This document shows positions 2,594 through 25,380 of a DNA stretch of 34,293 bases, one piece after another (positions within the stretch are counted from its first letter, which is position 1; each line of letters opens with the position of its first letter). Origin of the DNA: Vicinamibacterales bacterium (GTDB lineage: Bacteria > Acidobacteriota > Vicinamibacteria > Vicinamibacterales > CAVVIG01); NCBI GenBank assembly GCA_025450765.1, contig JANWLS010000183.1:1-34293 (forward strand), read 5' to 3'. Below the pieces are notes generated by a model. That model ran no database searches and was not told the origin of the DNA. It saw only the letters and a list, made by a program, of their open reading frames with translations. The position numbers and the translations under genes were made by a program.

Positions 2594-4040
2594 CGCCGCG
2601 ATCCCGCTCGTACGCCTCCGCCATTCTCAGAATCGTTTCTTCCTCGAACGGTCTGCCGGTCACGTGCAGTCCGATGGGAAGTCCCGCGCGCGTGAGGCCG
2701 CACGGCACACTCACCGCGGGGAGGCCCGCCAGGTTGGCGCTCACCGTGAAGACGTCATTGAGATACATCCGGAGCGGATCGTTCACCTGCTCGCCGAGCC
2801 TGAAGGCGGGCGCCGGCGCCGTCGGCAGCGCGATCGCATCCACCTGCGCGAACGCACGCGTGTAGTCTTCGGCGATGAGCGTGCGCACCTGCTGCGCCTT
2901 CACGTAGTACGCCTCGTAGTAGCCGGCGCTGAGGACGTAGGTGCCGAGCAGGATCCGCCGTTTCACCTCCGCACCGAACCCCAGATCGCGCGTCTTTCGA
3001 TACATGGCGGCCAGCGCGCCCTCCGAGGTGCCAGGGGCGCGCGCGCCATACCGGACGCCGTCGTAGCGGGCCAGGTTCGAGCCCGCTTCGGCTGTCGCAA
3101 TCAGGTAATAGGTCGGAATGGCATACGCGGCGCGCGGCAGCTGCACATCGACCAGGTGGGCGCCTCGGGCGCGCAGCGTCTCGAGCGCGGTGGTCGTGGC
3201 CTGCAGAACGTCCGGGTCGACGCCTTCCTGCAGCAGATGCTTCGGTACGCCGATTCGTACACCCCGCACGTCGCCGGTGAGCGCCGCTGAATAATCCGGG
3301 ACGGCCTCACGCGAGGAGGTTGCATCGGCTGGATCCTCACCGGCGAGCACCGACAGCGCCCGGGCCACGTCCTCCACGCGGCGCCCGATCGGCCCCACCT
3401 GATCGAGCGACGAGGCGAACGCGATGAGGCCATAGCGCGAGACGCGGCCGTAGGTCGGCTTCAACCCGACGACCCCGCACAACGCGGCGGGCTGGCGGAC
3501 CGATCCGCCGGTGTCGGACCCGAGCGCGATCGGCACGAGCGCCGCCGCCACCGCGGCCGCCGACCCGCCGCTCGATCCGCCTGGCGTCCGGTCGAGATCC
3601 CACGGGTTGTGCACCGGCCCTGCCGCGGAGCTCTCGTTCGAGGATCCCATCGCGAACTCGTCGCAGTTCGTCTTGCCGACGATGATGGCGCCGGCCGATT
3701 CGAGCCGCGAGACGACGGTCGCGTCGTAGGGAGAACGATAGCCGGCGAGGATGCGGGAGCAGGCGGTGGTCGGCAGCTCGCGTGTGCAGAGGTTGTCCTT
3801 CACGGCGACCGGAACCCCGGCGAGCGGCAGGGCGTTGAGCGCGTCGCGCGAGCGGGCGCGGAGCGCGTCGAGCGCACGCGCGCGTCCGAGCGCCTGTTCG
3901 GCACCGACGGCCGTGAACGCGTTGAGCCGCGCGTTCTCCTGCTCGATGCGCACAAGCGCCTCGCGACAAATCTCTTCGGCGGATCGCGCGCCGCTGACGA
4001 TGACGTCGCGGATGGCGGCAGCGCCCTGCGCCGGCGTCAT
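2562..4040 (-). CDS. gatA: Asp-tRNA(Asn)/Glu-tRNA(Gln) amidotransferase subunit A
   Basis: 492 aa amidase signature: GVPVAVKDNLCTRELPTTACSRIL, GGSSGGSAAAVAAALVPIALGSDTGGSVRQPAALCGVVGLKPTYGRVSRYG. Confidence 0.97.
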   Translation of the reverse strand: MTPAQGAAAIRDVIVSGARSAEEICREALVRIEQENARLNAFTAVGAEQALGRARALDALRARSRDALNALPLAGVPVAVKDNLCTRELPTTACSRILAGYRSPYDATVVSRLESAGAIIVGKTNCDEFAMGSSNESSAAGPVHNPWDLDRTPGGSSGGSAAAVAAALVPIALGSDTGGSVRQPAALCGVVGLKPTYGRVSRYGLIAFASSLDQVGPIGRRVEDVARALSVLAGEDPADATSSREAVPDYSAALTGDVRGVRIGVPKHLLQEGVDPDVLQATTTALETLRARGAHLVDVQLPRAAYAIPTYYLIATAEAGSNLARYDGVRYGARAPGTSEGALAAMYRKTRDLGFGAEVKRRILLGTYVLSAGYYEAYYVKAQQVRTLIAEDYTRAFAQVDAIALPTAPAPAFRLGEQVNDPLRMYLNDVFTVSANLAGLPAVSVPCGLTRAGLPIGLHVTGRPFEEETILRMAEAYERDRGAMPSPYPDGA

Positions 4041-22412: not shown

Positions 22413-23343
22413 GCCGCCATTCGCGAACGCGTCGTCCACGTCCACCCGCATCGGCTGGATCGGCACCGGCGTCATGGGCGTGTCCATGTGTGGGCACCTC
22501 ATGGCGAAAGGCTATCCGGTCACGCTGTACAACCGCACGCGCGCCAAGGCGCAATCGCTCCTCGATCGTGGGGCGACCTGGGCCGACAGTCCCGAGGCGG
22601 TGGCGCGTGCCTCCGACATCGTCCTGACGATGGTGGGCTTTCCGCCGGACGTGCGGGAGGTGTATCTCGGGGCGCCGGGCCTCATGGCCGGTGCGCGCGC
22701 CGGGCACCTGTTCGTCGATTTCACGACCACGGATCCGGCGCTGAGCCGCGAGGTGGATGCGGCGGCGACCGCCGCGGGTGCGGCCGCCGTGGATGCGCCG
22801 GTCTCTGGCGGAGACGTCGGCGCGCGAAACGCGACGCTCTCGATCATGGTGGGTGGTGCGCCGGAGGCCGTGGAAGCCGCCCTTCCGCTCCTGCACATCG
22901 TCGGCAAGACAGTCGTGCACCAGGGGCCCGCCGGTGCCGGGCAGCACACGAAGATGTGCAACCAGATCACGATCGCCGGCACCATGATCGGCGTCTGCGA
23001 GGCGCTGCTCTACGGGCACAAGGCTGGTCTCGATCTCGAGACGATGCTGCGGTCGATCGGCGGAGGCGCGGCCGGCTGCTGGACGCTGGACAATCTCGCG
23101 CCCCGCATCCTGAAGCGGAACTTCGATCCCGGCTTCATGATCGATCACTTCATCAAGGATATGGGGATTGCGCTCGACGAGGCGCGCCGGATGCGCCTGT
23201 CGCTGCCGGGCCTGGCGCTCGTGCACCAGTTGTACGTGGCCGTGCAGGCGCAGGGACACGGCCGTGATGGCACGCATGCGCTCATGCTGGCGCTCGAGCA
23301 GATGTCGCACACCGAGGTGTCGCTCGGAGTGGCGCGGGTGTGA
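22411..23343 (+). CDS. NAD(P)-dependent 3-hydroxyisobutyrate/beta-hydroxyacid dehydrogenase family oxidoreductase
   Basis: [97 protein letters not shown]. Confidence 0.95.
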
Positions 23344-23951
23344 CGGGCGGCCGTGTCCGCCCGCTGAAGCTGCTCGATCCGGCGGTCGTCCCGGGGCTGC
23401 TCGCGCGGCTCCGGCTCACGCGCCTGCTCGGTCGATTTCCGCCGCGGCCCATCTGGGCCGCGTTCATGTTCATCAACGGGTTCATCACGATCTGCATTCT
23501 CTCGGGCGTGGCCGAGCTCTCGAACACCCCGTTCATCTTTCCGTCGCTCGGCCCGACGGCCATTCTCTTCTTCGCGACACCGCTGTCCCCGTCGGCGAGC
23601 CCGCGCCACACCATCATCGGCCACGCCATCGGCATCGTCTGCGGGTACGGGGCGCTCGTCCTGACCGGATTGCAGCATCACCCGGCGGCGCTGCAGGTGG
23701 GGGTGAACGAGCCGCGCATCCTGGCGGCCGCGCTGTCGCTCGCCGCCACGAGCGCGCTGATGATCCTCCTCAAGGCGGCGCATCCACCCGCCGGCGCGAC
23801 GACGCTCATCGTGTCGCTCGGGATCGTGACGCGGCCGTTCTACCTCGGCGTGATCGAGATCGCCGTCGCGCTCTTGACCGTGCAGGCGGTCGTCATCAAT
23901 CGGCTGGCAGGGCTGGACTATCCCTTCTGGGTGGCACGCGCGCCGGACTAA
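23340..23951 (+). CDS. HPP family membrane protein
   Basis: 203 aa; [51 protein letters not shown] start overlapping previous stop. Confidence 0.9.
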
Positions 23952-25380
23952 TCCAGGCGTGGCGGAGGATCCAGGCGGTATCGATGCCGCCCAGGACCGC
24001 CGCCGCGAAGAGCACCCACGCGCCCGCCACGAGCAACGGTACGGCATCGAACGCAAACCCACCGGCCAGGCACGGAACGCCAATGAGCCACGACCAGAAG
24101 ATGAGCCGCTGCAGCGGATGCGAAGCCAGCGCATCGGGCGGGGTCAGATCTTGTTTCTTGCGCACTTGATCAGGGGGCAGAGGGGTCAGATCTTGTTTCT
24201 TGCGCACTTGATCAGGAGTGCAAGAAACAAGATCTGACCCCTTGAAGCGTGCGAAGGCGTGATACCAGGCGAAAATCGGCAGAATCCGCGCCTGCACGCC
24301 GACGATGATTTGCGCGAGAAAGCCCACGAGACCGCAGATGCCGTAGGCCGAGGCCAGCTGCAGCGTCCAGTCGTTCATCGGGGCGATCGCGAGGACGAGA
24401 CCGAACACGCAGCTCACCGCGAGATATCCCATCGCGATCGCGACATGACGCACGGCGCAGTCCGGCTGCGGCCGCCGCACCGGCACGGGACGCCGATGCC
24501 GGGTCATCCAGACCACGTGCGACAGGAACGCGGCGAAGCCCGCGACGATGATCGCACCGAACACGACGGTCCATCGGCTCTCTTTCAGTAACGCAACGAA
24601 CAGACCGGCCGTTCCAGCTTCGAGCAGGATGGCACTGACGTAGAGCGAGCGCCCGTCGGGCATCGCCGCGGGCAGCACCATCGGCAGCAGGCGGTAGGCC
24701 AGGCCGACGACCATGAGACTCGCCCAGCCGATGGCGGCCAGGTGGGCATGGGCGAAGACGTTGGTCAGCACGTAGCCAGAGAGAATCGGGTGGACCTTGT
24801 CGATCGCGAGCAGGATGCCCATGGTGGCTGCCGCGAGGATATTCGCGAAGGCGAGCAGGATGTGCACCTTCACGGAGCGCGGCGCGCGCGCGCGGGCCAC
24901 GCGAGGCAGCAGGCGCGCGGCCATCAGGGTGAAGCCGGCCGCGACGACGCCGGCCGACCAGCCCATCCCGCCGTACTCGCCGATCCAGAAATGGCCCGCC
25001 ATGCCGATGATGCCGGTCAGCAGCAGGCCGAAGATCCAGTAGTCGATCTGGCGCGCGGGCATCGGCATGCGCAGCGCCATCGGTCCCACCAGGTAGAGGG
25101 CCCCGATGATCGACAGGCTGATCCAGCCGAGCGTCACGAGGTGCACGAGCGCGATCAGGTGATGGTGATAGAAGAAGCCGCCGATGGCGCGTGGATCGAT
25201 CGCCGTGACGAGGAAGGCGAGCGCGAGCGCGACGTGCGCGGAGCCGAAGTACAGGACCGGCAGCCATCGCGGCGGCAGCGCATCAGGATCGATGCCCGTG
25301 CGCGGTTCGGTCGAGCTCGAACGCGAAGGTGGGCTCGATACGGTCGAGTCCTCGCGACGTTGATGAGTCACACTGTGCAA
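23896..25380 (-). CDS. Polytopic His-rich membrane protein (NnrS / haem-copper oxidase subunit I-like), carrying an in-frame repeat insertion
   Basis: 494 aa, about 12 TM segments, FFYHHHLIALVHLVTLGW, YVLTNVFAHAHLAAIGWASLMVVGLAYRLLPMVLP; 34-residue hydrophilic insert with QVRKKQDLTP twice; TTG start. Confidence 0.75.
   Translation of the reverse strand: MHSVTHQRREDSTVSSPPSRSSSTEPRTGIDPDALPPRWLPVLYFGSAHVALALAFLVTAIDPRAIGGFFYHHHLIALVHLVTLGWISLSIIGALYLVGPMALRMPMPARQIDYWIFGLLLTGIIGMAGHFWIGEYGGMGWSAGVVAAGFTLMAARLLPRVARARAPRSVKVHILLAFANILAAATMGILLAIDKVHPILSGYVLTNVFAHAHLAAIGWASLMVVGLAYRLLPMVLPAAMPDGRSLYVSAILLEAGTAGLFVALLKESRWTVVFGAIIVAGFAAFLSHVVWMTRHRRPVPVRRPQPDCAVRHVAIAMGYLAVSCVFGLVLAIAPMNDWTLQLASAYGICGLVGFLAQIIVGVQARILPIFAWYHAFARFKGSDLVSCTPDQVRKKQDLTPLPPDQVRKKQDLTPPDALASHPLQRLIFWSWLIGVPCLAGGFAFDAVPLLVAGAWVLFAAAVLGGIDTAWILRHAWISPARVPPRRDSPALPAD
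24140..24241. repeat. REP-like palindromic composite: direct duplication (42-bp period) plus inverted copy, inside CDS
   Basis: GGGGTCAGATCTTGTTTCTTGCGCACTTGATCAGG at 24140-24174 and 24182-24216; inverted AGTGCAAGAAACAAGATCTGACCCC at 24217-24241; 22-bp perfect hairpin stem 24182-24203/24220-24241. Confidence 0.95.

Follow-up and report, generated by a model that had tools for sequence, protein, structure and literature searches.

A TIR-type palindromic element in frame in a membrane-protein gene of a Vicinamibacterales bacterium, and similar inserts in other conserved genes

Results

The gene considered here lies on the minus strand of the window (the whole 34,293-nucleotide stretch of DNA that was analysed) and encodes a 494-aa polytopic membrane protein; it adjoins a 203-aa plus-strand ORF (23340-23951), which we take to resemble an HPP-family membrane protein. 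The TTG start of the host ORF is predicted, being the program's first start codon, and the open frame continues farther upstream. In Pfam the protein showed no more than weak similarity to COX1 (E=0.009, below the cut-off), and homologs of the gene were present in 25 of 60 related genomes. No tRNA was found in a search of the window. The coordinates of the features discussed below are collected in Table 1.

Table 1. Coordinates of the palindromic block, its host gene, the candidate transposase and the in-frame inserts in other genomes.
Feature	Location	Strand	Remark
Host gene, polytopic membrane protein	23896-25380	-	11 predicted hydrophobic segments
Insert-encoded peptide GSDLVSCTPDQVRKKQDLTPLPPDQVRKKQDLTP	24140-24241	-	residues 381-414 of the listed ORF
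Partial extra copy, 35 nt (arm + loop)	24140-24174	+	identical to 24182-24216
Spacer GGGCAGA, 7 nt	24175-24181	.	separates partial from complete copy
Complete TIR element (palindrome, 60 nt)	24182-24241	.	60-64-nt form recurs at many genomic locations
Arms of complete element	24182-24203 and 24220-24241		loop 24204-24219
Transposase ORF	G000:C124 (L075) 2796-3698		between TIRs 2618-2639(+) and 3681-3702(-)
TIR element (GGGGTCAG) in uvrA, G020	L076:1459-1522		uvrA = L076:358-3021, minus strand
TIR element in hutH (histidine ammonia-lyase), G020	L079:1501-1572		
TIR element in pxpC (5-oxoprolinase subunit C-like gene), G020	L094:1501-1575		
TIR element in trmD, Bipolaricaulota MAG JAJOKK010000143	L135:3728-3814		87 nt, same 22-nt terminus

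Within this gene lies a block of 102 nt, made up of a partial 35-nt copy, a 7-nt spacer and a complete 60-nt palindromic element. The 35-nt sequence GGGGTCAGATCTTGTTTCTTGCGCACTTGATCAGG occurs twice at 100% identity and 42-nt spacing (zero chance matches across 100 shuffles), and an inverted copy of its arm ends at 24241. The arms of the complete element pair perfectly over 22 bp, or over 24 bp with one G.T wobble, and the 60-mer folded as single-stranded DNA reached -27 kcal/mol (z = -10.9), no shuffle being equally stable. The 60-nt hairpin constitutes the natural unit, to which the remainder adds a partial copy. The original prediction, which had described the duplicated 35-nt element with its 42-nt period, the perfect 22-bp hairpin formed by the inverted and second copies, and a stop-free, in-frame block of 34 residues, was thus borne out in its coordinates, its repeat identity and its reading in the host ORF. 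On the coding strand the spacer and its neighbouring bases read P-L-P, which MAFFT aligned to the PVP of the orthologs, and they may be a remnant of ancestral P-V/L-P loop codons.

The insert-encoded peptide, which includes the segment KKQDLTPLPPDQVR, is positioned in a long hydrophilic loop (residues 361-425) between membrane helices, as anticipated from the hydrophobic segments on either side of it. This loop is probably cytoplasmic by the positive-inside rule, because it is predicted to share a membrane side with the protein's two other strongly positive loops. The frame is intact across the whole gene, including ~80 codons past the insert, and from this intact ORF we infer that the 34-residue loop is tolerated. 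Compared with the congener G001, dN was 0.23 and dS 0.72-1.0 on both sides of the insert (dN/dS ~0.2-0.3); judged by these substitution rates the signal shows a real gene, but it is mostly older than the insertion.

The insert was absent from all 20 distinct aligned sequences spanning the site, including that of G001, the only congener in the comparison, so that the peptide which the original prediction had proposed to look for in orthologs is carried by none of those that span the site. The site reads FKG-PVP-PPDEM in G001 and FKG-[insert]-PDAL in the window. The site-spanning orthologs have a short loop of almost constant length, and the net gain relative to them is ~27-29 codons rather than the full 34, because the window gene lacks ~5 codons of the usual GPVPP-type loop; the insertion was therefore accompanied by a local deletion, or it entered a loop that was already different. 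No target-site duplication was detected at the window insertion, and DNA-level comparisons for the window gene, hutH, uvrA and pxpC, whose loops also vary in length at these sites, yielded no clean empty site with a duplicated target.

The host assembly (G000; 3.3 Mb, 83% complete, 239 contigs) contains 44 exact copies of the 22-nt terminus and 24 near copies (1-3 mismatches), against 0 matches for the reversed 22-mer used as control. These termini form 35 elements, nearly all of them head-to-head inverted pairs of 60-69 or 81-90 nt with variable loops, and the ends begin GGGGTCAG at nearly all of them. Further genomic copies, whose absence would have weakened the original prediction, therefore exist at many places, and the identical termini throughout the genome fit the recent activity that it proposed. 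Half-plus-whole arrays with short spacers occur not only in the window block but also at L003 and L026 of the same genome and at L145 of genome G148, so that partial duplication is not confined to the window. The half-copy of the window matches the adjacent copy exactly, a sign that it arose by local duplication.

Most elements (24 of the 35) are found close (-10 to +2 nt) to the stop codon that ends a frame of 120 codons or more, compared with 4.6% of random sites, and in 10 cases a long frame ends in a TAG made up of a flanking TA and the first G of the element. Such element-made stops were sometimes seen at both ends of an element between convergent genes (e.g. L004, L067). TA directly preceded the terminal GGGG at 14 of 68 ends (background 1.1%); apart from this excess there were no fixed bases at -6 to -1 across the 68 flanks, and inspection of the flanks revealed no constant target-site duplication, L067 having TA on both sides. 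By codon-usage profiles, only the window copy has same-strand, same-frame coding sequence on both sides, and it is the only clear intragenic copy among the 35 elements. Four others (L007, L064, L065 and L012), through which long open frames run, were candidates for additional in-frame insertions but were discarded, since their coding-frame profiles do not continue across the element and several of the flanks end in real stop codons.

The only Y1_Tnp match in the G000 assembly is a 300-aa Y1/HUH (RAYT-like) protein, whose gene is flanked by the same inverted termini within a 1,085-bp element; the check for a RAYT gene suggested at the outset thus led to a single RAYT-like Y1 gene between matching TIRs. 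The protein matched the NCBIfam model REP_Tyr_transpos at E=5.5e-17, which is below the model's curated cut-off, and the HUH motif NHYH (H60, H62) and RYVALNPV (Y119) were invariant in a 5-sequence alignment. A C-terminal HTH is suggestive from residues 250-276 (HTH_38, E=0.0021, and HTH_23, E=0.0039, both below curated cut-offs). Elements of 88 nt share the subterminal CACGA..GTCCA of the transposase element and look like internally deleted derivatives of it. A plasmid search with the transposase returned distant relatives only, and in the congener G001 there was no element copy and no detectable transposase relative. Genome G020, of the same family, encodes a 49%-identical transposase with a TIR variant (..GATTTTTTC) that is common to its own short elements, so that TIR and transposase diverge together.

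When open frames were read across elements in related genomes, four further in-frame insertions were identified, in uvrA, hutH and pxpC of G020 and in trmD of a Bipolaricaulota MAG (Table 1). The UvrA, HutH and TrmD identities were above the NCBIfam cut-off, while for PxpC the 5-oxoprolinase/urea amidolyase domain scored above its cut-off and the PxpC equivalog model below. The UvrA insert comprises 21 residues relative to PDB 2r6f and precedes SLTGAYL. Measured against relatives, hutH and pxpC gained on balance less than the length of the element, so these genes, too, lack some of their earlier loop. Judged from the sequences, the uvrA and hutH loops look like tolerant or preferred sites. At the same uvrA site the sibling genome G005 (L174) has another palindrome, GGGGTCAG..CTGACCCC, in frame; the sibling uvrA palindrome GGGGTCAGACCCC..GGGGTCTGACCCC was dismissed as a repeat family on account of its single occurrence. 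In G002 (L165) the corresponding hutH loop is occupied by another in-frame insert, which differs from the TIR element, is rich in repeats and includes inverted ones.

Discussion

The block is, with high probability, a non-autonomous miniature TIRtron element that came to be in frame through insertion and partial duplication. The 22-33-nt TIRs of the palindrome match the ends of the 1,085-bp element with the genome's only Y1/HUH transposase, and this enzyme would recognise the hairpin into which the termini fold when the DNA is single-stranded, then cut and rejoin it, so that a short element could be copied or moved without target-site duplication. Most intragenic insertions would be purged, and the survivors would adjoin stop or start codons or, as here, form an in-frame loop; a partial local duplication following insertion would have added the second half-copy at a distance of 42 nt, that is 14 codons, with the frame kept. 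The arms are stop-free in all three entry frames (GVRSCFL, GSDLVSC, GQILFL) and in two of three exit frames (QETRSDP, KKQDLT), the third containing TGA. Because five of the six possible readings are open and a hydrophilic peptide loop is possible, the arms would aid survival within genes, and a suitable total length therefore suffices for an insertion to become a peptide loop. The loop is predicted to be translated and may be neutral for the host protein.

The family fits the TIR elements of TIRtrons, rather than a canonical GTAG REP. RAYT-like genes lying between TIRs (TIRYT, TIRtron), with the motif GGGGWSAS, were described by Di Nocera and colleagues in 2013, whose main text also describes an Acidobacteria group and TIR repeat families of moderate abundance (PMC3733652). 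Most TIRYTs belong to a subclass 2.1 with a C-terminal HTH (PMC6006769, 2018), and the TIRtrons/TIRYT of the former study are probably the TnpAREP subclass 2.1 of the latter. The term "REP-type element" in the original prediction holds for a multicopy, transposase-associated palindrome, but not for the GTAG/CGTC tetranucleotide, which is lacking at the stem foot. That the palindrome could nevertheless be a canonical GTAG/CGTC REP (REPIN) mobilised by a classical RAYT is very unlikely: although the hairpin, the inverted pairs, the RAYT-like transposase in the genome and the preference for gene ends are all shared with such elements, a GTAG/GGAG or CGTC tag is absent at the foot of the stem, the flanking positions are variable, and the termini are long TIRs whose initial GGGGTCAG fits GGGGWSAS as given in the main text of PMC3733652.

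Three further explanations bear on the insert itself. An ancestral structural loop of the protein family, with a merely coincidental resemblance to repeats, deserves practically no credence given the short, near-constant loop of all site-spanning orthologs and the identity of the insert DNA to a dispersed genomic repeat. An assembly artefact, in which repeat copies were joined or duplicated inside the gene by the assembler, might be suspected in a draft assembly rich in repeats, the extra partial copy being a misassembly-prone unit; yet both flanks come from one gene, colinear with one ortholog, and a contig chimera of two loci was therefore rejected. Moreover, neither copy disrupts the frame, other loci and G148 also have half-plus-whole arrays, and a normal read is longer than the repeats; we consider such an error highly improbable. 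Inactivation of the host gene, past or in progress, with an ORF open by luck and a misfolded protein (an early pseudogene), is unlikely but deserves more weight. The identical copies mean that the event may be too recent for visible decay, the insert brings in charged residues (RKK twice) while about five codons of a conserved-length loop are missing, and the purifying signal (dN ~0.23, dS 0.7-1.0) mostly predates the insertion. Against this, the whole frame is intact up to its end, the insert occupies a long hydrophilic loop whose charge predicts a cytoplasmic location, and similar in-frame inserts are kept in uvrA and trmD, genes that are rarely lost. The miniature TIRtron element tolerated as a protein loop is thus retained as the preferred reading.

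The phenomenon as such is already known, since the RPEs of Rickettsia, the classic in-frame palindromes (Ogata et al. 2000, 2002, as cited in PMC3733652 and PMC10969869), and the intragenic GTAG/CGTC REPs are of this kind. The present analysis adds a family of TIR type whose candidate transposase is encoded in the same genome, and several conserved genes that carry such inserts in frame. As in the TIRtrons of PMC3733652, a Y1/HUH transposase lies between TIRs carrying the GGGGWSAS motif in GGGGTCAG, and the TIRs are dispersed singly, as dimers and as clusters; unlike in the main-text description of TIRtrons, TIR elements here stand in frame in several conserved genes, and this TIR sequence does not appear in that main text. 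The intragenic GTAG/CGTC REPs reported there likewise are short palindromes in frame in conserved genes, uvrA among their hosts, and their ends often supply TAG stops to neighbouring genes, but the elements described here differ in tag and termini and lack the GTAG/CGTC foot; the intragenic units listed in the main text are those of the GTAG and CGTC families, and TIR families are not among them. With the RPEs our elements have in common that palindromic mobile DNA forms an in-frame insert in unrelated genes, its translation being predicted here, whereas they occur in another host group, are 60-102 nt long against about 150 bp, and have a candidate transposase with matching ends in the same genome. 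They also resemble MITEs and REPINs in being non-autonomous and in sharing terminal inverted repeats with a parent element, but differ from them in having no consistent target-site duplication, a Y1/HUH rather than a DDE transposase and no REP tag.

A literature search, mainly of freely accessible main texts, found no earlier report of in-frame TIR elements in conserved genes. In-frame palindromes have so far been discussed mainly for Rickettsia and the GTAG/CGTC REPs; a TIR family now shows them likewise, the five conserved genes concerned being unrelated to one another and distributed over three genomes from at least two phyla. The generation of protein loops by tyrosine transposases, the ways in which insertions survive in genes and the mobility of TIR elements, which were named in 2013 and have been little studied since, thereby become testable. 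A wider reading is possible, though on balance doubtful: that in free-living Acidobacteria and beyond, TIRYT-mobilised palindromes are a recurrent source of protein loops (the genes concerned being uvrA, hutH, pxpC, trmD and the window membrane protein), with preferred loop sites, at which palindromic inserts are retained or arise anew from one species to another, and with stop-poor arms that evolved for in-frame survival.

Among named genomes, those that contain the exact terminus are MAGs of Acidobacteria, Nitrospirae and Bipolaricaulota, and the trmD copy in a distant phylum suggests horizontal spread. The exact 22-nt terminus GGGGTCAGATCTTGTTTCTTGC was seen in Nitrospira/Nitrospirae MAGs (L127, L134, L136). 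In G020 (L154, G020:C299) a TIR element forms, by appearance, the C-terminal tail of a TrmFO-like protein.
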